Below, in pieces: positions 2,952 through 36,400 of a DNA stretch of 64,000 nucleotides. The notes under the pieces are model-generated. The model ran no database searches and was not told the DNA's origin. It saw nothing but the letters and a program-made list of their open reading frames with translations. A program made the translations under genes and the position numbers. Source of the DNA: Sphingomonas hankookensis (GTDB lineage: Bacteria > Pseudomonadota > Alphaproteobacteria > Sphingomonadales > Sphingomonadaceae); NCBI RefSeq assembly GCF_028551275.1, contig NZ_CP117025.1:1669501-1733500 (forward strand). The letters are read 5' to 3'. Positions within the stretch are counted from its first letter, which is position 1; each line of letters opens with the position of its first letter.

Positions 2952-3023
2952 GGCCTTGCTCCCGTCGCCGATGGACCTGACGCAGACCCGCCCGATCACG
3001 GCGACCAATGATCGGACCGGATC

Positions 3024-7084: not shown

Positions 7085-7153
7085 GGCATAGCGGCGGCGT
7101 CGCGCACCCGGCAAGGATGTCGTGCCGGTGCATCTGATCCGACGAACGATGAG

Positions 7154-7573
7154 CTAGCTTGCGTTGTCGCGAAGTCTCTCGTCGCCGAACGCCTCCAGGA
7201 TGCGGCAGTCGCCCACCGTGCCACCCGCGCAGTTCGAGATGATGGCGGAGAGCTCGCGTCGCAGGCCGCGCAGGTCGGCGATCTTGCGATCCACGTCGGC
7301 CAGGTGCTTCGACGCGATGGCATCGATTGTGTCGCACGAACGGTCCCGTTGGCGCGCCAGGTCCAGCATCGCCCTGATCTCCTCGAGCGTGAAGCCTAGG
7401 TCCCGCGTCTTCCGGATGAAGCGCAGCCTGTCGAGATCGCCCGTTGAGTACGAGCGGTAGTTGCCGCCCGTCCTGGCCGGCGGCGCGATCAGGCCCGCCC
7501 GCTCGTAGTAGCGAATCGTCTCCACCTTCACACCGGTCGCGGCGGCCAGTCGTCCGATCGTCAGGTCGGCCAC
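7154..7573 (-). CDS. MerR-family metal-responsive regulator (CadR/PbrR/ZntR-like)
   Basis: A 139-residue activator. It has the MerR helix-turn-helix TIGRLAAATGVKVETIRYYERAGLI, the RTGGNYRSYSTGDLDRLRFI wing, a coiled dimer helix, and three cysteines at 80, 115 and 123. That is the arrangement used by Zn/Cd/Pb and Hg sensors of this family. GTG 7573 was chosen because the further upstream in-frame starts lie within or beyond the MerR operator at 7582-7612. It is divergent from the CDF-czc operon and likely represses, then activates, that promoter by DNA untwisting. The metal is probably Cd, Zn or Pb, given the CDF and CzcCBA genes it faces. Confidence 0.88.
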   Translation of the reverse strand: MADLTIGRLAAATGVKVETIRYYERAGLIAPPARTGGNYRSYSTGDLDRLRFIRKTRDLGFTLEEIRAMLDLARQRDRSCDTIDAIASKHLADVDRKIADLRGLRRELSAIISNCAGGTVGDCRILEAFGDERLRDNAS

Positions 7574-9092: not shown

Positions 9093-10358
9093 ATGCATCG
9101 CATCATCGCGGCCGCGCTGGCCGCATCCGTCTGCGCATCGTCCGCGCAGGCGCAGACCAGTCCACCGGCAGCCGCGCAGGATGGGCTCACGCTTGAACAG
9201 GCGCTCGACCTCGCAGGCGCCAATGCGCCGGGGATCGGGGCAGCGGACGCCGGGGTCAGGGCCGCCGAGGCCCAGCGCCGCGTCGCCGGGCAGCGGCCCA
9301 ACCCCTCGGTCAACGTGGAGGTCGAGAACGTCGTCGGCACGGGCGCATACAGCGGCATCCGCGGCGCCGAGACGACCGTCGGCATGTCGCTGCCGCTGGA
9401 GCTCGGCGGCAAGCGCTCCGCGCGGATCGCAGTGGCGGACACGCAGACCGCCCGTGCCCGACTGGCGGTGGTGACGGCCCGTGCCGATCTCAGGCTCCGC
9501 GTCACCCAGGCCTACAACGAGGCGGTGGCGTCCGAACGCCGGCTGCTGATCGCGCGCGACCAGCGGCGCATCGCCACCGAGGGACTGAGGGCGGCGAACG
9601 TGCGCGTCCGCGCCGGCCGGGCCTCCCCACTGGAGGAGCAGCGCGCCGACGTCGCTCGCATCAACGCGGACACCGCGCTCGCCCAGGCCGAGCGGGCGGT
9701 GACACTCGCGCGCGCCAACCTGGCACGGCTGATCGTGCGCGACCCCGGCGCCCTCGATCTCGGCTGGTTCGACAGGGTCGCCGCCGGCCTCGGCCCGCGG
9801 CTTCCCATCAGTCCGGAAGGGACGCTTGCCCTGGCCGCGGCGGAGGCGGAGGTCGCGACCGCCAATGCGCAGGTGCGGTTGGCGCGCAGCCAGCGGGTCC
9901 CGGACCTCACGCTGAGCGCAGGTGCCCGCCGGCTGGAGGCCACCAACGACGTGGCGGCGGTATTCGGCGTCAGCGTGCCGATCCCGTTGTTCAACAACGG
10001 CCGCGCCGGCGTCGACGCCGCCCGCGCAGAACGGGACCAGGCCGAGGCGCTGCGGCGGGTCGCGCTGTTCGACGCGCAGCGGGCGATCGCCACGGCGGAG
10101 ACCGACCTCGCCAACGCGGAGGCGAACGCGCGAGCGGCAAACGGCCCGGCGCTCGCGGCGGCTCAGGAGGCCGCCCGCATCGCCCGCATCGGTTACCGCG
10201 AGGGCAAGTTCGGCCAGCTCGACCTGCTCGAGGCGGAGCGCACGCTCGCCCAGACCCGCTCGGCCGCCATCGACGCGCTCGCCGCCTATCACGACGCCGA
10301 GGCGCGCCTGGAGCGGCTCACCGCCCGCGCGCCAGCCAACACGGAAGTCCAGCCATGA
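9093..10358 (+). CDS. czcC: CzcC-like outer membrane efflux channel (TolC family)
   Basis: A 421-residue outer-membrane factor. A signal peptide (IIAAALAASVCASSAQAQ) is followed by two repeats of the TolC/OEP fold. These are alpha-helical coiled-coil regions rich in Ala, Arg, Glu and Gln, with EAQRRVAGQRPNPSVNVEVENV and later GKFGQLDLLEAERTLAQTR, the characteristic end of the second repeat. It would form the trimeric exit duct for the RND pump encoded by the next two genes. Its TGA overlaps the czcB start (ATGA). Length matches the CzcC/CusC/CnrC group. The metal range, Co/Zn/Cd or Ni, cannot be decided from this subunit. Confidence 0.92.
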   Translation: MHRIIAAALAASVCASSAQAQTSPPAAAQDGLTLEQALDLAGANAPGIGAADAGVRAAEAQRRVAGQRPNPSVNVEVENVVGTGAYSGIRGAETTVGMSLPLELGGKRSARIAVADTQTARARLAVVTARADLRLRVTQAYNEAVASERRLLIARDQRRIATEGLRAANVRVRAGRASPLEEQRADVARINADTALAQAERAVTLARANLARLIVRDPGALDLGWFDRVAAGLGPRLPISPEGTLALAAAEAEVATANAQVRLARSQRVPDLTLSAGARRLEATNDVAAVFGVSVPIPLFNNGRAGVDAARAERDQAEALRRVALFDAQRAIATAETDLANAEANARAANGPALAAAQEAARIARIGYREGKFGQLDLLEAERTLAQTRSAAIDALAAYHDAEARLERLTARAPANTEVQP

Positions 10359-11509: not shown

Positions 11510-14500
11510 ATGATCGCCCGCATCGTCACCTTCTCGGTGGAGCGGCGCTGGTTCGTCCTGCTGCTCACCGCCGTCGCCGCCATCGCCGGCATGCTCGCGC
11601 TCCAGCGGCTGCCGATCGATGCCGTCCCCGACATCACCAACAACCAGGTCCAGATCAACGTCGTCGCACCAGCGCTCTCACCCGACCAGGTCGAGAAGCA
11701 GGTCGCCTTCACGGTAGAGACCGCGCTCGCGGGCATCCCCGGCCTCGAATACACCCGCTCGCTCAGCCGCAACGGGTTCGCCCAGATCACGGCGGTGTTC
11801 GACGAGGGCACCGACATCTACTTCGCGCGCCAGCAGGTGTCCGAGCGCCTGCGCACGGCCGAGGAGGACCTGCCAGAGGGCGTGAACCCCGAGATGGGCC
11901 CGATCGCCACCGGCCTCGGCGACATCTTCATGTGGACCGTCGAATACCGCGAGCTCGACAAGGTCAACCACAAGAGCGGCGAGCCCGGGCTGCAGCCCGA
12001 CGGCAGCTACATCAGCCCCGAGGGCGACCATCTCGTCAGCGAGGCTGACAAGGCGACCTACCTCCGCACCGTGCAGGACTGGATCGTCGCGCCGCAGCTG
12101 AAGGGCACCGCCGGCCTGGCCGGCATCGACTCACTGGGCGGCTACACCAAGGAATATCTGGTCGTCCCCGACGTGCAGCGCATGGCGGCGATGAAGATCA
12201 CGCTGCAGGACCTCGCCACCGCACTCGAGCGCAACAACACCAGCGCCGGCGCGGGCGTCGTCAACCGCAACGGCGAGGGCCTGTCGGTGCGCGCCGACGG
12301 CCGCGTCCGCACGGCCGACGAACTGGCTCGGACGGTGATCGCCACGCGCGAAGGCGTGGCCATCGTGCTGAGCCAGGTGGCGGAGGTCAGGACCGGTCAG
12401 GGCCTGCGCATGGGCTCCGCGTCCGAGAACGGCCGCGAGGTGGTCGTCGGCACCGCCGTCATGCGGATCGGCGAGAACAGCCGCACCGTCTCGACGGGCG
12501 TGTCGGAGCGCCTGGAGGAGATCGGGCCGTCGCTGCCCGTCGACGTGGTGGTCAAGCCGGTGCTCAACCGCACCGACCTCGTCAACTCGACCATATCGAC
12601 CGTGGCGCGCAACCTCGCCGAGGGCGCGCTGCTCGTCATCGTCGTGCTGTTCGCGCTGCTGGGCAACTTCCGCGCGGCGCTCATCGCCGCGATGGTGATC
12701 CCCATCACCATGCTGCTGACCAGCATCGGCATGCTGCAGGCGGGCGTGTCCGCCAACCTGATGAGCCTCGGCGCGCTCGACTTCGGCCTGATCGTCGACG
12801 GGGCGGTGATCATCGTGGAGAACTCGCTGCGGCGGCTGGGCGAGGCGCAGCATGGACGCGGCGACGCGTTGCCGCTGAAGGAACGGCTCGCCATCGTCGC
12901 GGCGTCGGCGCGCGAGATGATCCGCCCGTCCGTCTACGGCCAGGCGATCATCATCCTCGTCTACGCGCCGCTGCTCACCTTCACGGGCGTCGAGGGCAAG
13001 ATGTTCGAACCCATGGCGCTGACAGTGATCATCGCGCTGGTCTTCGCGTTCGTCCTGTCGCTGACCTTCGTGCCCGCGGCGATCGCGATTTGGCTGAGCA
13101 AGCGGGTGGAGGAAAAGGAGGGGCGGATCATATCCGCGCTCCGCCGGCGCTACGAGCCGGGCCTCGACACCGCGCTGCGCCGCCCGAACGCCACGCTCGG
13201 CATCGCCCTCGGCGCGCTCGCGCTGTCGGCCGTCGCCTTCACGACGCTCGGACAGGAGTTCCTGCCGCAGCTCGACGAGGGCAACGTGCTGGTCCAGGCG
13301 ATCCGGATCCCCGGCACGTCGGTCGACCAGAGCCAGGCGATGCAGGCGCAGGTCGAGAAGGCGATCGCCAAGGAGCCCGAGGTCCAGTTCGCGTTTTCGC
13401 GGACCGGCACGTCGGAGATCGCCTCCGACCCGATGCCTGCGAACATCACCGACACCTTCGTGATCCTGAAGCCGAGGGAACAATGGCCCGACCCGAACCT
13501 CGGCAAGGCCGAGTTCGTCGAGCGGCTGGAAAGGCGACTCTCGACCCTCCCGGGCAACAACTACGAGATCACCCAGCCCATCCAGATGCGCTTCAACGAG
13601 CTGATCGCGGGCGTGCGCGGGGACGTCGCGGTGAAGGTGTTCGGCGACGACTTCGCCCAGATGAACGCGACGGCGGAGGCGATCGCCGGCGTGCTGCGCC
13701 GGACGCAGGGCGCGACCGACGTGCGGGTCGAGCAGACCGAGGGGCTGCCGATGCTGGACATCCGGCCGAACCGCACCGCGATGTCGCGGGTCGGGGTGAC
13801 CGCGGGCGACGTGCAGGACACGGTCGCCGCCGCGATCGGCGGGCGCGAGGCCGGCATGATCTTCGAGGGCGACCGGCGGTTCCCGGTCGTGATCCGCCTG
13901 CCGGAGTCGGCACGCTCCGATCTCACCGCCATCGCGCAGGTACCCGTGCCAACGGCCGAGGGCGGGTTCGTCCCGCTCTCGACCGTCGCGAACATCGAGA
14001 TCATCGACGGCCCGAACCAGATCAGCCGCGAGAACGGCAAGCGCCGCGTCGTCGTGCAGGCGAACGTGCGCGGCCGCGATGTCGCGGGCGTCGTGGCGGA
14101 CGCGCAGGCGGCGATCGGCGCCCGGGTGAAGATGCCGCCAGGCACCTACCTCGAATGGGGCGGCCAGTTCGAGAACCTGGCCTCGGCGCGTGACCGGCTG
14201 ATGGTCGTGGTGCCGATCTGCTTCGCGGTCATTATGCTGCTGCTCTACGGGGCGCTTGGCTCGGTCCGCGACGCGCTGATCGTCTTCACCGGCGTGCCGC
14301 TGGCCCTGGTCGGGGGCATCCTCGCGCTGCTGCTAAGGGGCATGCCATTCTCGATCTCGGCCGCCGTCGGGTTCATCGCGCTGTCCGGGGTCGCGGTGCT
14401 CAACGGACTGGTGATGCTGTCCGCGATCCAGGACCTGCTGGCGCGAGGCCTCGACCGCGCGGCAGCCGCCCGCGAGGGCGCGCTGGCAAGGCTGCGGCCG

Positions 14501-14740
14501 GTCGCGATGACGGCGCTCGTCGCCTCGCTCGGCTTCGTGCCGATGGCGCTCGGGCACGGGGCCGGTGCCGAGGTGCAGAAGCCGCTGGCGACGGTGGTCA
14601 TCGGCGGACTGATCTCGGCCACGCTGCTGACGCTGTTCGTCCTGCCGACGCTCTACGCCCGCTTCGGCCAGCGGCGGATCGAGGCGAGCGCGACGGACGC
14701 AACCACCGACATCGAAGGAGTGCAGACGCATGGCGCATGA
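11510..14740 (+). CDS. czcA: CzcA-family heavy-metal RND efflux pump
   Basis: A 1076-residue proton-driven inner-membrane pump of the HME-RND family. The N-terminus reads VERRWFVLLLTAVAAIAGMLALQRLPIDAVPDITNNQVQ (shown in parts), standard for CzcA/CusA. Helix 4 contains GALDFGLIVDGAVIIVEN, the DFGxxxDGA signature whose Asp residues carry protons and place the pump with divalent-cation (Zn/Co/Cd/Ni) CzcA-type transporters. Twelve membrane helices and two large periplasmic loops are evident. Length is normal (about 1040-1080). It ends inside the start of the next CDF gene (11-base overlap). With CzcC and CzcB it would export metal across both membranes. Confidence 0.94.
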   Translation: MIARIVTFSVERRWFVLLLTAVAAIAGMLALQRLPIDAVPDITNNQVQINVVAPALSPDQVEKQVAFTVETALAGIPGLEYTRSLSRNGFAQITAVFDEGTDIYFARQQVSERLRTAEEDLPEGVNPEMGPIATGLGDIFMWTVEYRELDKVNHKSGEPGLQPDGSYISPEGDHLVSEADKATYLRTVQDWIVAPQLKGTAGLAGIDSLGGYTKEYLVVPDVQRMAAMKITLQDLATALERNNTSAGAGVVNRNGEGLSVRADGRVRTADELARTVIATREGVAIVLSQVAEVRTGQGLRMGSASENGREVVVGTAVMRIGENSRTVSTGVSERLEEIGPSLPVDVVVKPVLNRTDLVNSTISTVARNLAEGALLVIVVLFALLGNFRAALIAAMVIPITMLLTSIGMLQAGVSANLMSLGALDFGLIVDGAVIIVENSLRRLGEAQHGRGDALPLKERLAIVAASAREMIRPSVYGQAIIILVYAPLLTFTGVEGKMFEPMALTVIIALVFAFVLSLTFVPAAIAIWLSKRVEEKEGRIISALRRRYEPGLDTALRRPNATLGIALGALALSAVAFTTLGQEFLPQLDEGNVLVQAIRIPGTSVDQSQAMQAQVEKAIAKEPEVQFAFSRTGTSEIASDPMPANITDTFVILKPREQWPDPNLGKAEFVERLERRLSTLPGNNYEITQPIQMRFNELIAGVRGDVAVKVFGDDFAQMNATAEAIAGVLRRTQGATDVRVEQTEGLPMLDIRPNRTAMSRVGVTAGDVQDTVAAAIGGREAGMIFEGDRRFPVVIRLPESARSDLTAIAQVPVPTAEGGFVPLSTVANIEIIDGPNQISRENGKRRVVVQANVRGRDVAGVVADAQAAIGARVKMPPGTYLEWGGQFENLASARDRLMVVVPICFAVIMLLLYGALGSVRDALIVFTGVPLALVGGILALLLRGMPFSISAAVGFIALSGVAVLNGLVMLSAIQDLLARGLDRAAAAREGALARLRPVAMTALVASLGFVPMALGHGAGAEVQKPLATVVIGGLISATLLTLFVLPTLYARFGQRRIEASATDATTDIEGVQTHGA

Positions 14741-15647
14741 TCACGGATCAGGCGGTCATTCCCACGACCACACCGCGGGCGCGAACGCGAAGATGCTCGG
14801 CTGGGCGCTCGCGCTCACGTCCACCTACCTAGTGGCCGAGGTCGTCGGCGGCTTCGTGTTCAACAGCCTCGCACTGCTGTCGGACGCCGCCCACATGCTC
14901 ACCGACGTCGCCGCGCTGGTGATCGCGCTGATGGCCATCCGGATCGGGCAGCGCCCGCCGGACGACCGCCGCACCTTCGGCTACCGGCGCTTCGAGATCC
15001 TGGCCGCCGCGTTCAACGCGATCCTGCTGTTCGGCATCGCGATCTACGTCTTCGTCGAGGCAATCCAGCGGTTCACCGATCCCGAGCCGGTGCAATCTTG
15101 GAGCATGCTGATCGTCGCGGCGATCGGCCTCGTCGTGAACCTGGTCTCGATGCGCCTGCTCACCGCGGGCAAGGAAGGCAGCTTCAACGTCAAGGGCGCC
15201 TATCTCGAGGTGTGGGCGGACATGATCGGGTCGGTCAGCGTCATCATCGGCGCGCTCGCCATCAAGTTCACCGGCTGGACCTGGATCGACCCGATCGTCG
15301 CCGTGGCGATCGGCCTGTGGGTGCTGCCACGGACCTGGGTCCTGCTGCGCGACACGACGAACGTCCTGCTCGAGGGCGTGCCTTCGGGCCTGCGGCTGGT
15401 CGAGGTGCGGGCGGCGGTCTCTGCCGTCCCCGGCGTCGCCGGCCTCCACGACCTCCACGTCTGGTCGATGTCGAACGACGACGTCAGCTGCACCATGCAT
15501 GTCACCTTGGCGCCGGGCGCCGATGCCGACACCGTCCGCAAGGCCGTCACCGAGCTGATCGACGAGCGGTTCGGCATCGAGCACGCGACGATCCAGACCG
15601 AGGGACCGGGCGAGGCGTGCGAGGAGAGCGAGCATCTCCACGACTGA
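14730..15647 (+). CDS. czcD: CzcD-like cation diffusion facilitator
   Basis: A 305-residue inner-membrane metal/proton antiporter. The N-terminus is His-rich (DHGSGGHSHDHT). Helix 2 has ALLSDAAHMLTDVAAL, the HxxxD zinc/cadmium site, and helix 5 has VWADMIGSVSVIIGA with the DxxxS variant. The C-terminal cytosolic domain with DLHVWSMSNDDVSCTMHVTL follows, so unlike the first CDF gene at 7643 this is a complete protein. It overlaps czcA by 11 bases and closes the operon. Known CzcD proteins lower cytosolic Zn, Co and Cd and modulate czc expression. Confidence 0.9.
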   Translation: MAHDHGSGGHSHDHTAGANAKMLGWALALTSTYLVAEVVGGFVFNSLALLSDAAHMLTDVAALVIALMAIRIGQRPPDDRRTFGYRRFEILAAAFNAILLFGIAIYVFVEAIQRFTDPEPVQSWSMLIVAAIGLVVNLVSMRLLTAGKEGSFNVKGAYLEVWADMIGSVSVIIGALAIKFTGWTWIDPIVAVAIGLWVLPRTWVLLRDTTNVLLEGVPSGLRLVEVRAAVSAVPGVAGLHDLHVWSMSNDDVSCTMHVTLAPGADADTVRKAVTELIDERFGIEHATIQTEGPGEACEESEHLHD

Positions 15648-15648
15648 T

Positions 15649-15864
15649 GACGAGAAGCCGCCGGCGGCGCGGCGGGCGCCGCGCCGATGGACGGACGAGG
15701 ACGACGCCGAACTCCGCGTCCGACTCGAGGCGCGCCAGCAGACGGCGCAGATCGCCCGGGAGATGGGAAGGACGATCGACGGGCTTCGTGGCCGGGCGCA
15801 GGTGCTGGGACTGACCCTCACGCCGTCGCAGCGGCCGTGGCGGTCGTTTCCGCGGCGCGGGTGA
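15649..15864 (+). pseudogene. SANT/Myb-like small DNA-binding ORF without a normal start
   Basis: This frame reads PRRWTDEDDAELRVRLEAR, QQTAQIAREMGRT and IDGLRGRAQVLGL, which is the tryptophan/helix pattern of a SANT/Myb-like or GcrA-like helix-turn-helix domain of about 45 residues. It ends in TGA 15862-15864, one base before the convergent merR-like gene. No ATG, GTG or TTG in frame precedes the domain back to a stop at 15556. An ATG at 15647 that overlaps the czcD stop is in another frame. A one- or two-base indel in the GC-rich run 15655-15685 would join them. It is either a frameshifted gene, a sequencing error or a rare-start gene. Confidence 0.45.
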
Positions 15865-16257
15865 TCAGGGCTCGAAGGCGGTGATGATGGGGCAGGCCCC
15901 TGCCGACCCGCTGCCACACGCGTCGGCCAGCCGAACGAGCGCCGACCGCGCGTCCTGCAGCTCTGCGATCCTCGCATCCAGCGCCGCCACGCGCGACCTC
16001 GCCAGCTCGCGCGCCCGCACGCGGTCATCGACGGCGTCCAGCTCGAGCAGTTCGCCGATCTCGTCCAGCGTGAACCCAGCACCCTGCGCCGACCGGATGA
16101 AGCGCAGACGACGGACGTCGGGCTCGCCGTAGCTGCGGAACCCGCTGCCGCCCGGCCGCTTGGGTTCGCTGAGCAAACCCCGGCGCTGATAGTAACGCAC
16201 CGTCTCGACGCCCACCCCGCCAGCCTCCGCCAATCGTGCGATCGTCATCCTCGACAT
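15865..16257 (-). CDS. MerR-family regulator, two-cysteine type
   Basis: A 130-residue regulator with MerR helix-turn-helix TIARLAEAGGVGVETVRYYQRRGLL, a wing RPGGSGFRSYGEPDVRRLRFI and a dimer helix. The C-terminal ACGSGSAGACPIITAFEP places cysteines at 114 and 122, as in mercury MerR. The first mercury-binding cysteine of MerR (near position 80) is absent; the segment reads LELDAVDDRVR. It may therefore bind a metal differently or sense another ion. It is divergent from the glutaredoxin-MauE fusion gene, with a MerR-type operator between them. ATG 16257 was used; ATG 16248 is an alternative. Confidence 0.85.
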   Translation of the reverse strand: MSRMTIARLAEAGGVGVETVRYYQRRGLLSEPKRPGGSGFRSYGEPDVRRLRFIRSAQGAGFTLDEIGELLELDAVDDRVRARELARSRVAALDARIAELQDARSALVRLADACGSGSAGACPIITAFEP

Positions 16258-27946: not shown

Positions 27947-28891
27947 ATGAGCGAACTCGACCTGTCGGGTATCGACCCGCTGCGTCGCGGCGAGGTCAGG
28001 CGCCGGATCGGCGTGCTGGACCGCTATCTCGCCATCGAGCGCCCGACGCGCGCCGATGCGGAACGGCATGCCGGCGAGATCGGCATCGGCGTCGCCCAGT
28101 TCTACCGGCTGGCCAAGGCCTGGCGCCTCCACCGCAAGCCGCAGATGGTCGGGGCGGGAGAGCGCGGGCGGCCCAGGACGCGGCGCGACGGCGTGCCCGA
28201 GAAATCGCGGTCAATCGTGGTCGAGGTCATCGGCGAACTCGGCGCGGATGCGAAGCTGGCCGACCTGCTCCGCGAGGTGGCACGACGATGCGAGGCAGCG
28301 GGCACCGTCACGCCCTCGCGCGGCGCCCTGTGGACCTATGTCATGGACGCGCGCGCCACCAGCCCCATCCGGACCAACGAGCCGCGCCGCATCGTGGTTG
28401 GACGCGTATGGGCCGAACTGCCCACGTTGCACGGCGACGGCAACATGTTTCCCGAAGTCGCGATCGCGATGCTCCTGCCCGAACGGACGATCATCGGCAG
28501 CGACGTCTCACTGGACCCCGGCAAGCGCGGCAGTGCGGCACTGGCGCTCGCCCGAGCGTTCGCGACCATGGGCGACGTCCCCGCCGACCTGCAGGTCGAG
28601 GTCTCCGCCGCCGACCGCGAAGAAGTGCTGCCGGTGCACCTCGCGCGTCTCGGCCGCGAACCGCTCCTTGGCGGAAGGTCCACAGGGACGACGATCGCCA
28701 GCAACCTGGGCCGCATGGTCGGCGGGCTGCGTATCCTGCACCGGCCGCACACCGCCAACCCGGATCGCCTGCTGGCTGCCCGATCCGTCAAACCGCTGGA
28801 CGGTGACGCCGCGGCGACCGAGGTGGAACGCGCCATCCGCCGCCACAACGAGGTGATCAGCGGCGATACGGTAGCCGCCGAACCGACCTAG
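27947..28891 (+). CDS. Degenerate integrase-like protein, paralogue 1, next to Tn7-like genes
   Basis: A 314-residue protein. AERHAGEIGIGVAQFYRLAKAWR is a helix-turn-helix like those at the start of Mu/TnsB-type transposases; TPSRGALWTYV forms a second. An RNase H-like strand pattern follows: RIVVGRVWAELPTL, PEVAIAMLLPERTIIGSDVSL. The catalytic Asp of the first strand is replaced (VGRVW where TnsB has YIDGT) and no second Asp or Glu is evident. C-terminal IASNLGRMVGG, LLAARS and AIRRHNEVI match segments of the convergent 28888 protein, so the two are paralogues. It may be a targeting or regulatory subunit of the transposon. Confidence 0.65.
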   Translation: MSELDLSGIDPLRRGEVRRRIGVLDRYLAIERPTRADAERHAGEIGIGVAQFYRLAKAWRLHRKPQMVGAGERGRPRTRRDGVPEKSRSIVVEVIGELGADAKLADLLREVARRCEAAGTVTPSRGALWTYVMDARATSPIRTNEPRRIVVGRVWAELPTLHGDGNMFPEVAIAMLLPERTIIGSDVSLDPGKRGSAALALARAFATMGDVPADLQVEVSAADREEVLPVHLARLGREPLLGGRSTGTTIASNLGRMVGGLRILHRPHTANPDRLLAARSVKPLDGDAAATEVERAIRRHNEVISGDTVAAEPT

Positions 28892-29985
28892 TCGTGCTTG
28901 CCGCCCAGCGTCGCCAACGCCTTGTAAAGGTGCGGCGGCGGTTCAGGCGCTCCCGCGCGAGACAGGTCCAGCGCGTCGTTGTGCGCGTCGGCGGCGCGGC
29001 GTAGCGCGTCGTATGCGTCAGCCTCGGTCCAGGCGGTCATGTCGCTATTCGCGGCGAGCGCATCGCCCGCCAGGGTGCGCGTGGGCGTGAAGGTCACCTT
29101 GCCGAGGCGAGGACCGAGCGTCCTGGCGATCATCCGACCATAGCGTCGCTCGCCGCGCTCAAGGATGAAGTGGGTATCCCTGAACCGGGAATTCAGCTCG
29201 TGCATGACGCTCGAGATCCGGTCGATGTCCTCGCCGGCCGTGATGCGCATCACCGAGAACACGTTCGACCAGCGCCACCGCCCGCCCTCGCGTTCGATCG
29301 TCCGCAGCGCGTCGTTGGCGGCGCCGTTGTGGCCGCGAATCACCGCCTCGATCGCGCCGACGCCGACGCCCAGCACCGCGCCGGTTCCCGCATCCATGCA
29401 GAGGAAGGCGATGTGGGGCCGCCCATCGACACGAGGCAGCGATGTCGCGACGCAATCGGACAGAAGCACCTGACCGAGCGGCATCGAGGAAGCGATCCGC
29501 CGCTGCTCCGCCTGCACGATTTCGCGCAGCTTCGTCATGCCGGGGACCTTCGCGCCCTCCGGCAGGCGCGCGAAGCGAACCATCCTGTCGACCAAGGCGC
29601 TGGTCGACATGTCGCCGAACAGCAGGACCACCTGGCGAGCGGCATCGCTCAACGCTTCCAGAACGTCGCTGTCGACCTTGGACTTGCGCGCGCCCGCGCG
29701 CGCGAAGACGCCGAGCGACGCGAGCGACGGAGTGTCGCGCCATTCGGCGGCGATGCGGTAGAAGCGACTGACGCTCATGTCGCCCGCGAGAGCGGCGGCG
29801 GACACGACGTCCAACTCGCCGCGGCCGCCATCCCATTGCCGCAGCGCCGCGAAGCGCGCCAAAGCCCGCGCCCTCTGCGCCGGCGTAAGGCGCCGCCAGA
29901 CATCCGCCTCGCCGGCCGCACGATCCTGAAAGGCCGCGACCAGCTCCGACGGCAGCGAAACCTCGCGATCGCGGTCCGTTTCCAT
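28888..29985 (-). CDS. Degenerate integrase-like protein, paralogue 2, divergent from tnsA
   Basis: A 365-residue protein. MSVSRFYRIAAEWRD is the helix-turn-helix matching FYRLAKAWR of the 27947 protein. VPGMTKLREIV matches its second helix, and VLLSDCVATSLPRVDGRPHIAFLCMDAGTGAVLGVGVG is the RNase H-like core. Here an Asp is kept on the first strand (SDCVA), but no DDE triad is apparent. GERRYGRMIARTLGPRLGKV and LAANSDMTAW align with the paralogue, as does AADAHNDAL. The last 4 bases overlap the end of the convergent gene. It is divergent from tnsA, with shared upstream repeats. Confidence 0.65.
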   Translation of the reverse strand: METDRDREVSLPSELVAAFQDRAAGEADVWRRLTPAQRARALARFAALRQWDGGRGELDVVSAAALAGDMSVSRFYRIAAEWRDTPSLASLGVFARAGARKSKVDSDVLEALSDAARQVVLLFGDMSTSALVDRMVRFARLPEGAKVPGMTKLREIVQAEQRRIASSMPLGQVLLSDCVATSLPRVDGRPHIAFLCMDAGTGAVLGVGVGAIEAVIRGHNGAANDALRTIEREGGRWRWSNVFSVMRITAGEDIDRISSVMHELNSRFRDTHFILERGERRYGRMIARTLGPRLGKVTFTPTRTLAGDALAANSDMTAWTEADAYDALRRAADAHNDALDLSRAGAPEPPPHLYKALATLGGKHD

Positions 29986-30012
29986 CCGCGCTCATTAACC
30001 ATCGAAGGCGCC

Positions 30013-30092
30013 ATTGTCGAATAAAAACGCGAGTTTTTCATTGCCGCATCGTTCAAGTCATATATATGCAACTTCCGAATAAGAATGCGACT
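30013..30092. repeat. Direct repeats between paralogue 2 and tnsA
   Basis: ATTGTCGAATAAAAACGCGA (from 30013) and ACTTCCGAATAAGAATGCGA (from 30071) match at 16 of 22 positions over their full length and lie 58 bases apart. A partial third copy CATTGCCGCAT is at 30039-30049. The region is AT-richer than all neighbours. Such repeats in front of tnsA are candidates for TnsB-binding sites at an element end, or for operators controlling the divergent genes. Confidence 0.5.
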
Positions 30093-30157
30093 GGTTGAGT
30101 CGTTGCGGCGTCGGCGACGCTGCCGCTCCGCCACGCAGGTTGTGAAAGGCGTCGCGG

Positions 30158-31132
30158 ATGTTGCGAGACGAACAGCGGAACGGGGATGTAGAAACCGAAC
30201 AGTCGATGGCTGCCGCGGGTGGCTCGCCAGCCGCGGGTGCACCGAGTGTCCCGACCTCGCGGCTCCCCGTCTTCACCCACGCGCATCCGCTCGCGGGCTG
30301 GAGCCCGTCGCGGCGTCCCCCTCGGCATCGGGTGATGCGCGTGCCGCACCGGCACGTCGTCGCCGACCATCTCAACGGGGTGAAGGACCCGGCTCGCTGG
30401 GTGCTGATCGGCATCGAGGCCGCGGATGATCTCGGCATGGTGCGCACGGGCATGACCTACGACAAGGACTATGGGACGAGCGCCGGCTTTTTCGAGAAGC
30501 CGCAGCGCCTCCAATTCTTTGAGGGGCCGAACGAGCCGGCGGTCGCCGACCATCTGGAAATGTCGCCGCGCTACCTGGACTTCCAGTTCCAGCCGCTCCG
30601 GCTGACGTTCCGCCGCGCGGACGGCCGCGTGATCCACAAGTATCCCGACGTCGGGATCGAATACGACGACCACAGCGTCCGGTTCGGCGAGATCAAGTCG
30701 GACGACGCGTGGTTCCAAGCGGCAGGCATCCGACGTCCGCTCGAGCGGATCGACATGGCGATGTCGGCCTCGGGCATGGACACGCTGCTCAGAATTAAGG
30801 GGACAGTCTTTCGCAGGGACGAGGTGCAGAAGGCGCACGGCATCGCGATGGAGGCCCGCCTGACGACCTTCGATCCGTCGACCGACGGCGGCCGGGCCCG
30901 CGCGGCCGTCATGGCCGCCGGCGGCCGGGCCCGCTACGCCGACGTCGTCGCCGCCCTCGGCGGCCACCGCGCGCACGCGGTCGACAAGCTCTACGCGATG
31001 CTCATGCGGCGCGTGGTCGACTTCGACCTTTCGTCCGAGCCGACCGCCGACACGCTCGTCACGGCGCCGCGACCCGCGAGCGCGTTCGCGCTCCGCGAGC
31101 TGCTCGCGCGCTTCCAGCGGAAGGTCGCCTGA
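30158..31132 (+). CDS. tnsA: TnsA-like transposon end-cleaving endonuclease
   Basis: A 324-residue protein. In Tn7, TnsA cuts the 5' ends of the element so that TnsA+B give cut-and-paste transposition. The restriction-like active site is visible: Glu134 in DHLEMSPRYLDFQFQP, Asp164 in YPDVGIEYDD, and Glu178-Ile-Lys180 in VRFGEIKSDD. A helical C-terminal region follows, as in the part of TnsA that contacts TnsC. GAAAGG precedes the ATG by 8 bases. The N-terminal 40 residues are unusual and the real start may be later. The TGA overlaps the tnsB ATG. Confidence 0.88.
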   Translation: MLRDEQRNGDVETEQSMAAAGGSPAAGAPSVPTSRLPVFTHAHPLAGWSPSRRPPRHRVMRVPHRHVVADHLNGVKDPARWVLIGIEAADDLGMVRTGMTYDKDYGTSAGFFEKPQRLQFFEGPNEPAVADHLEMSPRYLDFQFQPLRLTFRRADGRVIHKYPDVGIEYDDHSVRFGEIKSDDAWFQAAGIRRPLERIDMAMSASGMDTLLRIKGTVFRRDEVQKAHGIAMEARLTTFDPSTDGGRARAAVMAAGGRARYADVVAALGGHRAHAVDKLYAMLMRRVVDFDLSSEPTADTLVTAPRPASAFALRELLARFQRKVA

Positions 31133-33360
31133 TGCCGAGTCCGCTGCGCATCCCCGCCGGCACCGTCTTCGCGCACGACGGCACGCGGATCTCCTTCGTC
31201 GAGGAGGTGGACGACTTCGTCCTGCGCTTCGTCATCGAAGGGACCGACGACGAGTTCTTCGTCGAGGCGGCCCCGGGCGTGATGGTGCGACCGACCGTCC
31301 AGTGGCTGCTGGACGAGTTCGCGGCGGGGCGTCTGCGCGAGTTCACCGCAAGCGAGGCGACGCTCACCGAATGGCGCGGACGCTATCTCGGCTGGGACCG
31401 GACGGCCTGCCTCGCCAAGCAGCCCAAGGCCGTCCGCAAATACGAGCTCGCGCTGGCGGCGCTCGTCCAGGGCAAGCCCAAATCCGCGACGGCGCTCGAG
31501 GACTTCGCCAAGGAGATGTATCCGGACGACGAGGTCGCATCGGGCCGCTCGATCATCCGCTGGATGAACAATCTCGAAGCCTTCGGCGAGAAGGTCGGCG
31601 TCATGATGAACCGCAGCGGCCGTGAGAAGGGCCGCTCGCCGCTGCCGCGGATCGTCGACCGGCTCGTCCATCAGGCCATGGCGCTGCACTGGTCCGTCGA
31701 CGCCATCAAGAAGATGGACGCCTATTCGCTGACCGTCGCCGCTTGGCACCGGCTGAAGGACGCGGGTGCCACCGGCATCGGCGACGCTCCGCCGCACAAG
31801 AGCACGGTCGTGAACCGCATCAACAAGTGCGAGGACATGGAGGCCTGGACGTCCAAGCACGGGCCGCATGAAGCCAATCGTTATTTCCTCGCCTCGGGCG
31901 AGAGCATGCCCATCACCCGTCCGTTCCAGCTCGCCTACATCGACGGCACCGAGTTCGAGCAGGTGTGTCTGTTCTCGGCCGACGCCGAGATCCCCAGCAA
32001 CAAGATGAAGATCGTGCAGGTCATCGATGCCTGCGCGCTCTTCGCATATCCAACCACGCCCTTCAGCGGACCCTATCGGTCCGAAATGGGGATGTACGCG
32101 CTCATGGGTGCGCTCACGCCCCCCGTGCTTACCAAGGAGCAGATGGCGGCCGATCCCATGCGCGTGCTGTTCTTCGGCCGTCAGGGCCTGCTGCGCGGCG
32201 ACAACGACAAGGCCATCATACCGCCGTCCGCGATCGGAAACCTGGCGAGCGTCATCGGACGCGTCGAACTGGCGAAGAGATACGGGTCGGACGAGAAGTC
32301 CAACGTCGAGAACTATTTCGGATGGCTGAAGCACAGGTTGGAAGGCGAACCCGGCACTGTTCTGTCCGCCCGTAGCCGCCGGCGCTCGATCCGCCGCGAT
32401 CCGATGAAGGAGGCGGCAATGACCCGCGCCAGCTTCGCGCAGAAGCTGGAGGCGCTACGGCTCGAGTGGAACGACACAGCGCACGAGGCCATCGGCTGGC
32501 GGAAGCCCAACGACGTCATGCTCGAGTTCATCTCGGCCCAGCGGACCCGCTTCAGCGACCCCAAGGACGTCCGGCGCAACCTCGCGCGAACGGTCCCCGG
32601 GGTTCTCACCACCGATGGCGTCGTCCACGACAACATCACCTACAGGTGGAACCGCGAGGGCGTGACGCAGACGCTGTCGAGCAACCTCGCCGCCCAGGCG
32701 TTCTCCAAACGGCTGGAAGGCACCGCGCGGTGCGACGTGTGGCTGCGCGTCTTCGACTGGAACCTCGACATCATCGAGATCGTGGACGAGGCCGGCAACG
32801 ACTTCGTCGAGCTCTGGTCCGACGATCCCGACTACACCCAGTTCCTCACCCGGTTCGAGCACAAGTTCCACCAGTCCTGCGTGATCGCGGGCAGCACCGG
32901 CGCGCAGACGGCCGAGCAGAAAGCCCTGCGCCGGGCGGAATCCCTTCAGCAGCAGTGGGAGGATCTGCACAATCTGCCCTATGCCATCGCCAAGAAGGCA
33001 GGGGCGGTCCTCGAGCGTGCTGAGGTGCGCGCGAAGGCGCGCAACGTCGCCGACGATCCCGATCTCACCGACTTCTCCGCCTTCATGATCCCGACGGACA
33101 TAGGCGGCTCGAAGCGAGCGGACGTTCCGCTCGGTCCCACGCAGTCGCGCTCCGCAGACGCACCGGACGACGGCACGGACGCGCGCGCGGACACCAACCG
33201 TGGCCCGGCAGGCGACTGGGGCGGACTCGATCCCGCACCCCGATCCAACCTCGACATGCTCGCCGCCGACCAGGAGCAGGAGGACCTGGACGGCGGCATC
33301 GACTGGGACGCGGACGATGACCGCCGCTCCGAGAATTCCTCTTCGGGAGATGATGCGTGA
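31132..33360 (+). CDS. tnsB: TnsB-like DDE transposase
   Basis: A 742-residue transposase that binds the ends and makes the 3' cuts and strand transfer. N-terminal DNA-binding domains cover residues 1-250. The catalytic core has Asp271 (LAYIDGTEF), Asp357 (LRGDNDKA) and Glu393 (SNVENYFG). The last two are 35 residues apart, a classical DD35E. LRLEWNDTAHEAIGWRKPNDVM is the typical integrase-core end. The acidic C-terminal tail (residues about 690-742) may bind TnsC. It overlaps tnsA and tnsC. All three catalytic residues are intact, so the enzyme looks active. Confidence 0.92.
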   Translation: MPSPLRIPAGTVFAHDGTRISFVEEVDDFVLRFVIEGTDDEFFVEAAPGVMVRPTVQWLLDEFAAGRLREFTASEATLTEWRGRYLGWDRTACLAKQPKAVRKYELALAALVQGKPKSATALEDFAKEMYPDDEVASGRSIIRWMNNLEAFGEKVGVMMNRSGREKGRSPLPRIVDRLVHQAMALHWSVDAIKKMDAYSLTVAAWHRLKDAGATGIGDAPPHKSTVVNRINKCEDMEAWTSKHGPHEANRYFLASGESMPITRPFQLAYIDGTEFEQVCLFSADAEIPSNKMKIVQVIDACALFAYPTTPFSGPYRSEMGMYALMGALTPPVLTKEQMAADPMRVLFFGRQGLLRGDNDKAIIPPSAIGNLASVIGRVELAKRYGSDEKSNVENYFGWLKHRLEGEPGTVLSARSRRRSIRRDPMKEAAMTRASFAQKLEALRLEWNDTAHEAIGWRKPNDVMLEFISAQRTRFSDPKDVRRNLARTVPGVLTTDGVVHDNITYRWNREGVTQTLSSNLAAQAFSKRLEGTARCDVWLRVFDWNLDIIEIVDEAGNDFVELWSDDPDYTQFLTRFEHKFHQSCVIAGSTGAQTAEQKALRRAESLQQQWEDLHNLPYAIAKKAGAVLERAEVRAKARNVADDPDLTDFSAFMIPTDIGGSKRADVPLGPTQSRSADAPDDGTDARADTNRGPAGDWGGLDPAPRSNLDMLAADQEQEDLDGGIDWDADDDRRSENSSSGDDA

Positions 33361-34358
33361 CCAACGCGAAAAAGGATCCGCTCGGCGTCCAGCCGCCGCC
33401 CGTCCGCGGCGATCCCAAGCCGGTGTTCACCGACCCGGCCCGCAACGCGCGGGTCGAGGCGGTCGTGCCGTTCTTCAAGACGAACTACATCGAGCACGAG
33501 CCCCAGACCATCGTGGTAGAGCAGCTGCTCAGCTACCTCAAATCCATGCAGTCGCTTCTTGGTGGGCCGATCGACGGCCGCTGCCTGTCCGAGCACAGCA
33601 ATGCCGGAAAGTCGCGCATGATCGAACATCTCGTTCGCATGGCGGCATTGAGGCGGGCCGAGGCGGGGCTGCCACCCAATCCACACCAGATCCTGTGCAT
33701 CGAGCTGGACAAGACGACATCGGTCGCCACCTGGCTCCGCCGCATCCTATACGAGATGGGCGACGACCACTGGAACGACCGCAACGCGAAGATCGAGGAC
33801 CTCGAGGATCGCATCCTCACCATGTCTCGCAGGCTCGGCGTGGAGGGGATCGTCGGTGACGAGGTCCAGCACCTCGATCGCAAGACGACCGACGCCCGAC
33901 AGGTCACCGACCGCTTCAAGACGTTCCTGAACCGCGGCATCCTGCCGCTCATCCTAGTCGGTGACGAGGACGCGGAGAAGTTCTTCGAGAAGAACGGCAA
34001 GTTCGCCTCCCGCCTCGGCACGCCGCTCGAGCTGAGGCCGCTCAATCCCCGTGGCGACGCTCACGACAAGGAACTCTTCCTCACCTTCTGCGAACGCCTC
34101 GACCAGTCGATGGTCGAGGGCGGGATCATCGACGAGCTGAGCGGCCTGAACAAGATTGGCTTCCGGACCCAACTCGTGACGGTCAGCAGCGGGCACGTCG
34201 GTCGCGTGTGCCGTGTGGTGTGCGAGGCGGCGCAGCACGCGCTGCGTCGCGGATCGCCCGCGATCGAACGGCACGACATGAGCGTCGCGACCCGGGGCTT
34301 CGCCATGAAGCTGAAGTGGGTGCTCCACGATCCGTTCTCGAATCGCGGCGGCTCGTGA
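33357..34358 (+). CDS. tnsC: TnsC/TniB-like AAA+ transposition regulator
   Basis: A 333-residue ATPase that connects target selection to the transposase. The P-loop is SEHSNAGKS (Lys85, Ser86); the usual first Gly is Glu79. Walker B is GIVGDEVQHL (Asp168, Glu169). LGTPLELRPLNPRG and TVSSGHVGRVCRVV are the expected sensor regions. GTG 33357 overlaps the tnsB stop. Length is as for TniB/TnsC of about 300-350 residues, shorter than Tn7 TnsC (555). The first residue of the P-loop is unusual but the key Lys is kept. Confidence 0.9.
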   Translation: MTNAKKDPLGVQPPPVRGDPKPVFTDPARNARVEAVVPFFKTNYIEHEPQTIVVEQLLSYLKSMQSLLGGPIDGRCLSEHSNAGKSRMIEHLVRMAALRRAEAGLPPNPHQILCIELDKTTSVATWLRRILYEMGDDHWNDRNAKIEDLEDRILTMSRRLGVEGIVGDEVQHLDRKTTDARQVTDRFKTFLNRGILPLILVGDEDAEKFFEKNGKFASRLGTPLELRPLNPRGDAHDKELFLTFCERLDQSMVEGGIIDELSGLNKIGFRTQLVTVSSGHVGRVCRVVCEAAQHALRRGSPAIERHDMSVATRGFAMKLKWVLHDPFSNRGGS

Positions 34359-36283
34359 AGGTCGCCGAGGCCCCGTTCAAGCGCCTGCGGTTCGAATACG
34401 ATCCCGGGCCCCGCGAAAGCGTGATCGGTGCACTCGCCGCCGCCTGCCGGGAGCACCGACTCCCCAGGATCGCCACCGCGCTCGAAGGCGGCGGCGTCCA
34501 TGTCGCCAGGATCGGCTTGATACAGTGCGTCCCAACCGACATGCTCGATCGCATCGCGCGCGTCATCCGCACCGAGCCGGCGAACCTTCACACGATCGCC
34601 TTCACATGGTCCGACCGACGAGATCGCATCGTTCTGGGCGATCTCGTTGCGCCCAGGTCCGCGTTCGACCTGGAGAGACGCCGCATAAGCCCGGTGTCAT
34701 TGCGCAAGGGGCCATACCATCGCAGCGACTGGCTCAACCTGCTGCTGCCCTACTGCCCGGAATCCCTCGAACTGCTCGTCGACGCCTGCCCGGATTGCGG
34801 ACCCCTGGGGTGGCGCTGGACCCGGGGGCTCGACGCCTGCGAAGGCTGCGGCAAGCAGATCGCACCGTCGAAGGCCCCGCCGCTGCCGCTCTATGCGGCC
34901 GACGACTACCGCCTCTTCGCCGATCTGATGTCGCGGGATCCGGACGCCGGCGCGAAAGCGGTCGAACAATTGCCCTCGGTCATCCAGTCCTTCTCGCGCA
35001 CGGCGCTGGTGGGTGTGGCACTGCGCGCGGGGATCGTCGCGACGTCCGGTCGACGAGGAGGGGGCGTCGAGAAGTTGGCGGAGGCAGGGCCGGACGTGGT
35101 GGTGAAGGTGGTTGCGACGGGGGCGGCGCTGCTGCGGCGGTGGCCCGCCTCCATGCAGGCGTTCGCCGACAGGCGGCTTGACGCGATCGCCGGCGACGTG
35201 GCCGCCTATGAGACCATGCGTCGCGATATCCGATGGATCGCGCAACGTCAGCACATGGAGGAAGGGCGCCTCGTCGCCCTCGCGTTCCCCGACATCGATG
35301 GTCGCAAGGTCCAGACCTTCGCGAAGGACACGCGCTACTACACGGCGACGGAGACGAACATCCAACTCTGGACCTCGTCGCAGCAGCTGAAACAGCTTCG
35401 CGACGCCAAGGCAGTCCGCTTCGAGGAGTTGCCGGGCGGACAACGCAAGCGCGTGCGGTATGACGCAGACGACGTGGATGCGCTGCGGAACCTGCTTCGC
35501 ACTTCCACGACCGCGGAATCCGTCGCCGCCCGGTTCGAGATCCCCGTCTACGCCATCAGCCAGATCGCATTCCCCCAGCCGGTCCCGACCGCGAGCGACG
35601 GCCCCGACAGCTCGGACACTGCTCTGCTCACGGCCTTGAATCATCCGGGCGTCGTGATCCTCCAGGGTCAGAAGCTGGACGCCACGTCCGTCGAGAATTT
35701 CGCTCGCGAACTCGATTCCATCGCCATCCGTCACCAACCGCCCCCGGGGATCATCACGCTGCGGAGCGCGATGATCAGGTATCCGGGTGAAAAGCCCTGG
35801 GGTCGCGTGCTGGCGGCATTGCTTGGGAGGCGAATCCCATACTACGTGGCCGGGACCCAGCCGGCGACCGCACGCAGCATTCATGTCGATCCAGCCAGAC
35901 TGCCCAAGCTCCCGCTCTGCCAGCGCGAGCGGGACGAGGGTTTCCTGAGGTTCACGCACGTGTCCATGCGCGACGCCGGCGAGATCCTCGGCGCCGGCTT
36001 CGAGGAAACCGCCGAGGCGATCGCATCGCGCGGCATCGAAATCTCACGCTACGGCAAGGGGAACGGGGTCTCGCGCGAGGCAGTTGACGCGCTGGCCCGC
36101 ATCATCGCCTTCACCGGCGAGGCCGCCGTCTTCTCCAACCGCAATGCGGTCGGCCTCTACCACGAGCTGAAGCGAGCCGGCGTCGCCCGCCTGCATGGCG
36201 GATGGTCTCGCCGTGAACTCGTTGAGCGCGGGCTGGTCAGCCATGCTCGAGCGGGCTGCGGACAGTCGTTGCGAACCAAATGA
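34355..36283 (+). CDS. tniQ: TniQ/TnsD-like target-site protein
   Basis: A 642-residue protein. RKGPYHRSDWLNLLLPYCPESLELLVDACPDCGPLGWRW (in parts) and DACEGCGKQI form the TniQ zinc-binding core, with Cys134, 145, 148, 162 and 165. The remaining 470 residues are helical, with several helix-turn-helix-like segments (SVAARFEIPVYAISQIAF; RDAGEILGAGFEETAEAIASRG), as in TnsD proteins that read a specific attachment site. GTG 34355 overlaps the tnsC stop. A longer in-frame ORF from 34208 is a shadow of tnsC. Length fits TnsD (about 500-700) better than short TniQ. It is the only TniQ gene in the window. Confidence 0.88.
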   Translation: MKVAEAPFKRLRFEYDPGPRESVIGALAAACREHRLPRIATALEGGGVHVARIGLIQCVPTDMLDRIARVIRTEPANLHTIAFTWSDRRDRIVLGDLVAPRSAFDLERRRISPVSLRKGPYHRSDWLNLLLPYCPESLELLVDACPDCGPLGWRWTRGLDACEGCGKQIAPSKAPPLPLYAADDYRLFADLMSRDPDAGAKAVEQLPSVIQSFSRTALVGVALRAGIVATSGRRGGGVEKLAEAGPDVVVKVVATGAALLRRWPASMQAFADRRLDAIAGDVAAYETMRRDIRWIAQRQHMEEGRLVALAFPDIDGRKVQTFAKDTRYYTATETNIQLWTSSQQLKQLRDAKAVRFEELPGGQRKRVRYDADDVDALRNLLRTSTTAESVAARFEIPVYAISQIAFPQPVPTASDGPDSSDTALLTALNHPGVVILQGQKLDATSVENFARELDSIAIRHQPPPGIITLRSAMIRYPGEKPWGRVLAALLGRRIPYYVAGTQPATARSIHVDPARLPKLPLCQRERDEGFLRFTHVSMRDAGEILGAGFEETAEAIASRGIEISRYGKGNGVSREAVDALARIIAFTGEAAVFSNRNAVGLYHELKRAGVARLHGGWSRRELVERGLVSHARAGCGQSLRTK

Positions 36284-36400
36284 CGAGCTTGCCTCGACGC
36301 GCTAGCGCCGGCATTATCTGCAAGGTGCTCGGCGGTTCAGGTCAAGAAACCTGTGACAAAGTTAAAGCGCCGCAGCGCCGGGATTTGTTAGCGTTCGCCG
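36284..36400. other. Probable boundary between mobile element and chromosome
   Basis: The 117 bases between tniQ and the DUF3617 gene must hold the right-hand end of the element if the accessory DNA is one Tn7-like transposon. Tn7-like ends finish in ACA-3' on this side; TGTGACA at 36352-36358 is one candidate. No left-end partner is in view to confirm it. A short GCGC-rich dyad lies at 36368-36379. Confidence 0.35.

Follow-up and report, generated by a model that had tools for sequence, protein, structure and literature searches.

Research on Tn7-like elements is directed at programmable insertion. In phage immunity regions, and for the Mu c repressor and its operator, a repressor gene and an operator between divergent genes are exchanged as a block. 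To our knowledge, none of these repressors is an inactivated copy of an entire transposase core. That Tn7-like elements home to tRNA genes by means of TnsD/TniQ is known, as the accessible part of PMC11406308 describes. A broad survey sought new parts of such elements among genes that share an operon with tniQ/tnsD or tnsC (accessible part of PMC10293859). Element-encoded regulators have also been described. CvkR, a protein of the MerR type, is a transcriptional regulator of a CRISPR-associated transposon (accessible part of PMC9938897), and RtaC/RtbC, of the Xre type, regulate CRISPR-associated transposons, with zygotic induction in I-F3 elements (accessible part of PMC11406308).

Here, a window of 64,000 nucleotides, meaning the whole stretch of DNA that was analyzed, was examined in a Sphingomonas hankookensis-like genome. 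Strain CN3, recorded as Sphingomonas hankookensis, matches it with 99.99% identity over 21 kb, and its record is the source of the family and genus names used. A 38.6-kb Tn7-like transposon spans G000:C1:1667241 to window position 36377, and two genes, termed A and B, are internal to it. Like CvkR and RtaC/RtbC, they encode proteins with DNA-binding-like domains beside a Tn7-like core, and a regulator role is putative. Unlike these regulators, as the accessible parts of the sources present them, A and B are derived from the transposase itself, are paired and are found with unrelated cores. With TnsF of Tn6022 they share that a disabled recombinase is retained by a Tn7-like transposon. In contrast to A and B, TnsF belongs to a different enzyme superfamily, shares an operon with tniQ and has comM as its target (accessible part of PMC10293859), whereas A and B are divergent from tnsA and follow neither target nor TniQ. 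Because of this divergent position, an operon-based screen is expected to miss the pair. The A/B cassette together with the intergenic DNA between divergent genes resembles a phage immunity region, an analogy in which the function of A/B is putative. In the open-access literature searched, we found no description of a regulator built of two dead transposase copies. If our reading is true, the pair would show, in a form open to direct test, how a transposase has been turned into the regulator of its own transposon.

A Tn7-like transposon downstream of tRNA genes

The core of the element is formed by tnsA, tnsB, tnsC and tniQ (Table 1). In TnsA, residues E134, D164 and K180 are invariant in 10 of 10 aligned rows, and the acidic/Lys active site of the endonuclease is present; the Pfam TnsA-like N domain was detected in 2 of these rows. 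Profile matching linked TnsB to TnsB of Tn6677 with an E value of 2.6e-67, and its catalytic residues D271, D357 and E393 are invariant (12/12 rows). The same holds for H122, C145, C162 and C165 of TniQ (12/12). Pfam TniQ was found in 7 of the 12 TniQ rows, the copy of the window not being among them. The tniQ gene is the final gene before the right end, with its stop 94 bp from that end. Thus, the TnsA active site, the TnsB DDE triad, TnsC, TniQ/TnsD, inverted ends and a 5-bp duplication at the att site were all found, identifying the element as Tn7-like. The sequence-only reading had placed A and B beside a Tn7-like operon. The adjacency is correct, but the description was too narrow, since the pair lies inside the transposon.

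Table 1. Positions of genes, ends, duplications and operator-like repeats (window coordinates unless a contig or stretch is named)
Feature	Position	Strand	Remark
gene A	27947..28891	+	314 aa; degenerate TnsB-like paralogue
gene B	28888..29985	-	365 aa; degenerate TnsB-like paralogue
operator-like direct repeat, copy 1	30019..30032	+	GAATAAAAACGCGA
operator-like direct repeat, copy 2	30077..30090	+	GAATAAGAATGCGA; 58 bp from copy 1
tnsA	30158..31132	+	true start possibly further in
tnsB	31132..33360	+	DDE intact: D271, D357, E393
tnsC (TniB/AAA)	33357..34358	+	Pfam TniB E 6e-12
tniQ/tnsD-size gene	34355..36283	+	~640 aa; start placed by the analyst
right terminal inverted repeat	36350..36377	-	CGCTGCGGCGC..TAAC..TGTCACA, read inward
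left terminal inverted repeat	G000:C1:1667241 (L064:5242)		2260 bp left of window
target duplication CCGGG, right copy	36378..36382	.	5 bp
target duplication CCGGG, left copy	L064:5237-5241		11 bp after tRNA-Lys

The element begins 16 bp downstream of the 3' end of tRNA-Lys. An empty site was found in the relative G381, where the sequence of the right flank of the window runs directly into tRNA-Lys(ttt); the gene next to this tRNA is one that we take to be folK. In the genome of the window, tRNA-Lys and the adjoining gene lie 38.6 kb from the right flank. TGT...ACA termini are absent from the element of the window, which ends in CGCTG; the mapped ends of elements G009, G187, G472 and G146 start with TGT.

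In ten elements the 3' end of a tRNA gene faces the left end at a distance of 6 to 16 nt. The targets are tRNA-Lys (window, G920, G397), tRNA-Cys (G059, G460, G921, G146) and tRNA-Arg (G009, G187, G472). The 5-bp duplication is exact in 8 of these ten, matches in 4 of 5 positions in G397 and is inexact in G146. As a control, combined scores for terminal inverted repeats (TIR) and duplication were compared with those of 25 random places for all of these elements except G920 and G921. Scores above all random places were obtained for the window, G059, G460, G009 and G187. G472 only drew level with the random places, and G397 and G146 scored below them; the ends of these three therefore rest mainly on the tRNA position. 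TIR detection without the tRNA as anchor gave a clear outcome only for the window and G059. In G205 and G043 a tRNA is present on the left side, yet the TIR score was not above control. G081 carries tRNA-Gly 40 bp right of tniQ and G091 carries tRNA-Leu 3 kb right of tniQ. A left-side tRNA was not seen in the available stretches of G134, G081, G091, G225, G229, G444, G256, G206, G419 and THN1.

A/B and core are near-identical in G059, G460 and G921, and the three elements have three different duplications, hence they are separate insertions. In G059, two frames that overlap make up tnsB (L015:13585-15063, 492 aa, and 15060-15983, 307 aa), and likewise in G460 and G921. With three different target duplications among these close elements, the two-piece TnsB seems to transpose. 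Insertion just downstream of tRNA genes and a large TniQ/TnsD are features shared with known tRNA-homing Tn7-like elements (accessible parts of PMC11406308, PMC10293859 and PMC8649781). In contrast to the I-B2/I-D branch with its fused TnsAB, as far as the accessible text describes it, TnsA and TnsB are separate here, tniQ is terminal and a dead TnsB pair is present.

Genes A and B and their linkage to the core

By alignments, the structural model and hhalign, the product of gene A consists of a pair of helical DNA-binding-like domains at its N terminus and an RNase H-like region that lacks the triad. B has retained the first Asp (D177); the second Asp is missing and the Glu column is variable (alignment, model, fold search and hhalign). 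The DDE triad is absent from both proteins and intact in TnsB of the same element (alignments, hhalign). Like TnsB and MuA, to which they are similar in profile and fold, A and B have N-terminal helical DNA-binding-like domains in front of an RNase H-like region; the two structure models are of modest quality, and it is these helical domains that are well predicted in both. Unlike TnsB and MuA, they have lost the triad, are about half as long as TnsB of this element and have no match to Pfam Mu-transpos_C, which was absent from the A and B rows and present in 5 of 12 TnsB rows. The sequence-only reading had proposed that A and B are catalytically degenerate paralogues derived from TnsB. Profile comparison and fold search bear this out, both grouping the two proteins with TnsB/MuA. 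Structure prediction and fold search, run for both, did not give a fold unrelated to RNase H/integrase, and an intact triad was found in neither alignment.

Pfam, NCBIfam, PHROGs and PADLOC did not place A or B; zero PADLOC models matched either at E 0.1. The best PHROGs match of B was a transposase (E 0.019), and weak Pfam HTH_23 matches occurred in 2 of 11 B rows and 3 of 10 A rows. Of the families that Pfam matched in the A and B rows, none was a tyrosine recombinase, nor was there one among the 50 fold matches listed for A or the 50 listed for B. Comparison of G059 or G921 with G472 gave dN/dS values of 0.08-0.12 for A and B, which are rough, as are all values with dS above 1 (here 1.4-1.6). 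Near-identical A/B copies gave 0.26-0.47, and B of the window versus G920 gave 0.33. These values argue against free decay. Judged from their sequences, A and B are real genes, kin of TnsB that have lost the catalytic triad. In L021 and L023, protein A is without the RNase H-like part and has, by eye, an apparent extra repeat of the N-terminal helical domain; thus, DNA binding seems to be what counts in A.

Each gene was found at a single location in the source genome. The coordinates confirm the convergent arrangement with 4 overlapping bases and the divergence of B from tnsA (30158), both of which had been read from the sequence earlier. In a family sample of 249 genomes, 12 relatives of B besides itself were found, and 10 of these show the arrangement A><B-tnsA-tnsB-tnsC-tniQ with order and polarity unchanged. 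L025 and L026 have a lone B-like gene adjoining another TnsB. The B profile matched 28 of 397 family genomes at E 1e-6; several weak matches are frames of 555-568 aa, aligned over the RNase H region only. Across the class, 3 of 385 sampled genomes matched: that of the window, a second one from its genus and, weakly, one from outside the family. The TnsB profile matched 55 of 397 family genomes at E 1e-15, and the 24 loci with E values of at most 1.1e-97 were defined as the core set, the following match being at 5e-61. Both genes lie by tnsA at 19 of these 24 loci, so that the proposed conserved linkage to tnsABC-tniQ holds. One locus has A only (G043:C7), two have neither (G140, G086) and two end at a contig edge (G081:C8, G303:C19). 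Position and polarity of A/B by tnsA are nearly constant among relatives; in G256 both genes are on the same strand. In 21 convergent pairs, the stop-to-stop distance ranges from -46 to 1137 and is -4 in 6 of them.

Several loci deviate from the common arrangement. G086, without A/B, has two genes upstream of tnsA (L191:5374-6270 and 6267-7157) that read as ParB/RepB-like. In G134 a second, partly decayed A/B-like pair (L018:7868-9193 and 9223-9453) lies left of the intact pair. At other Tn7-like loci, those of G248, G100 and G200, there is a single TnsB-like gene divergent from a tnsB operon (L026:11337-12686 with 13482-15818; L132:996-2660), in which the second Asp is absent by eye; this gene is possibly a one-copy form of the A/B pair. 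A full-length A was not found beside B in Sphingomonas sp. 1F27F7B (G920). An 81-aa N-terminal fragment of A is located there at the left end by tRNA-Lys, far from B (L036:7929-8450; G920:C27:13682-13927). In viral contigs we found no relative. Searching plasmids gave 0 matches for B of the window and 2 for B of G009.

Co-variation, the intergenic region and possible roles of A and B

Pairwise similarities of 16 elements (120 pairs) were compared by Mantel tests. Similarities of A and B are correlated (r=0.88, p=0.0002), as are those of tnsA, tnsB, tnsC and tniQ among themselves (r 0.71-0.83, p=0.0002). In contrast, A or B versus any core gene gave r -0.06 to -0.16 (p 0.71-0.98). Pairs with the same target were closer to each other in TnsB (p 0.025) and in TniQ (p 0.031); TnsA (p 0.054) and TnsC (p 0.056) were borderline, and neither A (p 0.87) nor B (p 0.76) was closer. 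These p-values come from eight elements, which is few, and are therefore indicative only. Among elements whose target is known, the closest core pairs have it in common (window-G397, Lys; G059-G146, Cys; G187-G472, Arg). For A/B, the closest pairs mostly differ in target (G059-G472, Cys/Arg; G397-G009, Lys/Arg; G397-G146, Lys/Cys), the exception being window-G920 (Lys/Lys). G059 and G472 are 74% identical in A and 82% in B, versus 22% in TnsB. For the window and G920 the values are 72% in A (over the 81-aa fragment), 57% in B and 22% in TnsB. The reverse case is the window versus G444, with 59-60% in TnsA/B/C and only 25% in A and 35% in B. Thus, the transposon of this family consists of two independently varying halves, the machine with its target on one side and the dead-transposase pair on the other. 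Homology and triad loss, linkage, A-B co-variation and the independence from core, ends and target are shown here, as is the common B-tnsA intergenic DNA within each of the two closest A/B pairs that differ in core.

The region between B and tnsA comprises 172 bp (29986-30157), and no match to a sigma-70-type promoter was found in it. The window and G920 share B plus 109 bp past its start, up to about 30094, just beyond the second repeat. In G059 and G472 the shared DNA covers some 950 bp on the left of A, A and B themselves and 181 bp past the start of B. Between the window and G444, shared DNA sets in no earlier than 138 nt into the tnsA ORF. Among the three distantly A/B-related pairs formed by G397, G146 and G009, DNA similarity lies within B (two pairs) or is absent (one), and in none does it reach the intergenic region. 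The intergenic DNA is hence shared in 2 of 5 A/B-related pairs; the two close pairs show it moving along with A/B, and in the three distant ones it is not traceable.

Direct repeats in this region were evaluated with 60 shuffles per region, p being uncorrected for multiple tests. The repeats of the window gave p 0.03 at 58 bp and are the sole exact matches of their pattern in the 3.95 Mb genome. In G920, GATTAAAATGCGA and GAATTAAAATGCGA are 59 bp apart (0/60 shuffles). WTTCTAMATGCCAAYGC occurs twice at 44 bp in both G059 and G472; in G472 (p 0.02) the first copy overlaps the start of the longest ORF of B. The spacing is also 44 bp in G921 (p 0.05). G225 has a perfect 14-mer pair 56 bp apart (0/60 shuffles), and G146 has a pair at 19 bp (p 0.35). 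Overall, 5 of 18 regions, near-copies included, reached p<=0.05 and 13 of 18 did not. Each of five elements was scanned with its own motif. All exact matches fell either within the B-tnsA region or right at the start of the longest ORF of B, and no match with <=3 mismatches occurred in the end 400 bp; a single match with 4 mismatches was found there in G920. Since the motifs were derived from these same sequences, the informative part is their absence elsewhere, not their presence. The repeats were also considered as a transposon end, which was ruled out because the mapped ends lie elsewhere.

Three roles had been suggested for the pair, and of these the regulatory one fits best; target choice at the tRNA site and end binding are unlikely. 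Recognition of the transposon ends, as a dominant-negative TnsB, or of the tRNA att site could follow from the homology to TnsB, and a tRNA-site selector was tempting because the window and G920 share both the A/B type and tRNA-Lys. However, G059 (tRNA-Cys, ends TATCAGATTGCAC) and G472 (tRNA-Arg, ends TGTTGGTTC, TIR weak) share A/B despite different tRNAs and unrelated terminal repeats, G397, G146 and G009 share B at 46-52% identity across Lys, Cys and Arg targets, and the window and G920 have the A/B type in common but not the ends. The selector was rejected on these cases together with the missing relation of A/B similarity to target, and end binding by the different ends and the motif scan of the end 400 bp. 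One A/B type thus serves unrelated cores, ends and tRNAs, and recognition of either site is highly improbable. The Mu operator/enhancer acts with MuA in transpososome assembly. By analogy, A/B might bind an internal enhancer and aid assembly, for which the internal repeats between divergent genes and the TnsB/MuA-like architecture would speak; assembly factors should co-evolve with TnsB, which A/B do not, and we consider this very unlikely.

A role outside transposition, such as keeping out other mobile elements or phages, with the tnsA side as a favoured slot, would agree with the independence from the core and with the different gene pair that occupies the slot in G086. The nearly constant position and polarity by tnsA, the TnsB homology, which points toward transposition, and the lack of a PADLOC match at E 0.1 make it quite unlikely. 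A second target selector like TnsE/TnsF would send the element to a non-tRNA target, e.g. plasmids, while TniQ homes to tRNA genes. TnsF, an inactivated tyrosine recombinase, is a target selector (Faure et al. 2023, accessible part of PMC10293859), and among Tn7-like elements a lifestyle with two pathways is common (accessible part of PMC11406308). Two plasmid-borne related cores, THN1 and YK209, carry A- and B-like genes; THN1 is typed as conjugative, and the 37 kb examined left of its element are tRNA-free. Yet the YK209 copy has a tRNA gene on the left that faces the element (candidate ends score 18, control maximum 24), and a selector would have to work with TnsC or TniQ, whereas A/B similarity is uncorrelated with any core protein. 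We therefore regard a second selector as unlikely.

A factor that touches ends, att site, TnsB, TnsC or TniQ should track them, and A/B track none; in the two pairs that allow it to be seen, they accompany the B-tnsA intergenic DNA. A self-contained control unit that binds an operator is the simplest reading. That A/B evolve and are swapped as their own unit likewise suggests an exchangeable control switch and not a part of the jumping machine. We propose that A and B, two catalytically dead TnsB descendants that would have kept DNA binding, form a control unit of the transposon. Probably as a heteromer, they would bind the direct repeats in the region that separates B from the divergent tnsA and would thereby set how strongly tnsABC-tniQ and B itself are expressed. 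The operon of a settled element would be kept low by them. The unit may move onto unrelated Tn7-like cores, comparable to exchanged prophage immunity regions. For this heteromeric, operator-binding and exchangeable control cassette we estimate a probability of roughly 0.47, slightly below even; DNA binding, the heteromer, the repressive sign and the immunity consequence are parts that we infer. Several observations count against such a control role. The RNase H-like region and Asp177 in B exceed the needs of a simple repressor, cores without A/B exist (G086, G140), and the A fragment of G920 is far from B. Significant repeats are lacking in 13 of 18 regions, the operator is shared in only 2 of 5 pairs, and the B-tnsA region shows no sigma-70-type promoter match. 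The dN/dS values of 0.26-0.47 and 0.33 given above count on this side as well. More tentatively, the cassette and its operator might repress resident as well as incoming elements of the same type and so act as an immunity region made from dead transposases. Frequency-dependent selection would then have diversified the cassette and shuffled it between unrelated cores, resulting in heteroimmune transposons.

Cargo genes

Cargo on the far side of A includes an RND pump and a cation efflux protein, in addition to multiubiquitin and ThiF-like genes at the left end. The latter lie in L064:5347-8279, where ThiF-like (under the Pfam cut-off), multiubiquitin and weakly AAA-like genes occur together, a possible bacterial ubiquitin-like system carried as cargo. 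Near the left end, a 3'-5' exonuclease gene (window 1266-2147, minus strand; Pfam RNase_T) recurs in 15 of 20 other stretches searched, and a 3'-5' exonuclease is annotated in the YK209 plasmid element too. Also near this end, a 264-aa protein of no assigned family (window 2214-3008, minus strand) recurs in 16 of 20 other stretches. Cargo of about 94% identity was found over 11.5 kb between G059:6289-17784 and G472:17088-28584, the cores of which are unrelated, and over 8.2 kb between G059:9632-17784 and G146:37609-45762, with distantly related cores (coordinates of oriented joined stretches). Such identity despite unrelated or distant cores points to recent exchange of cargo.
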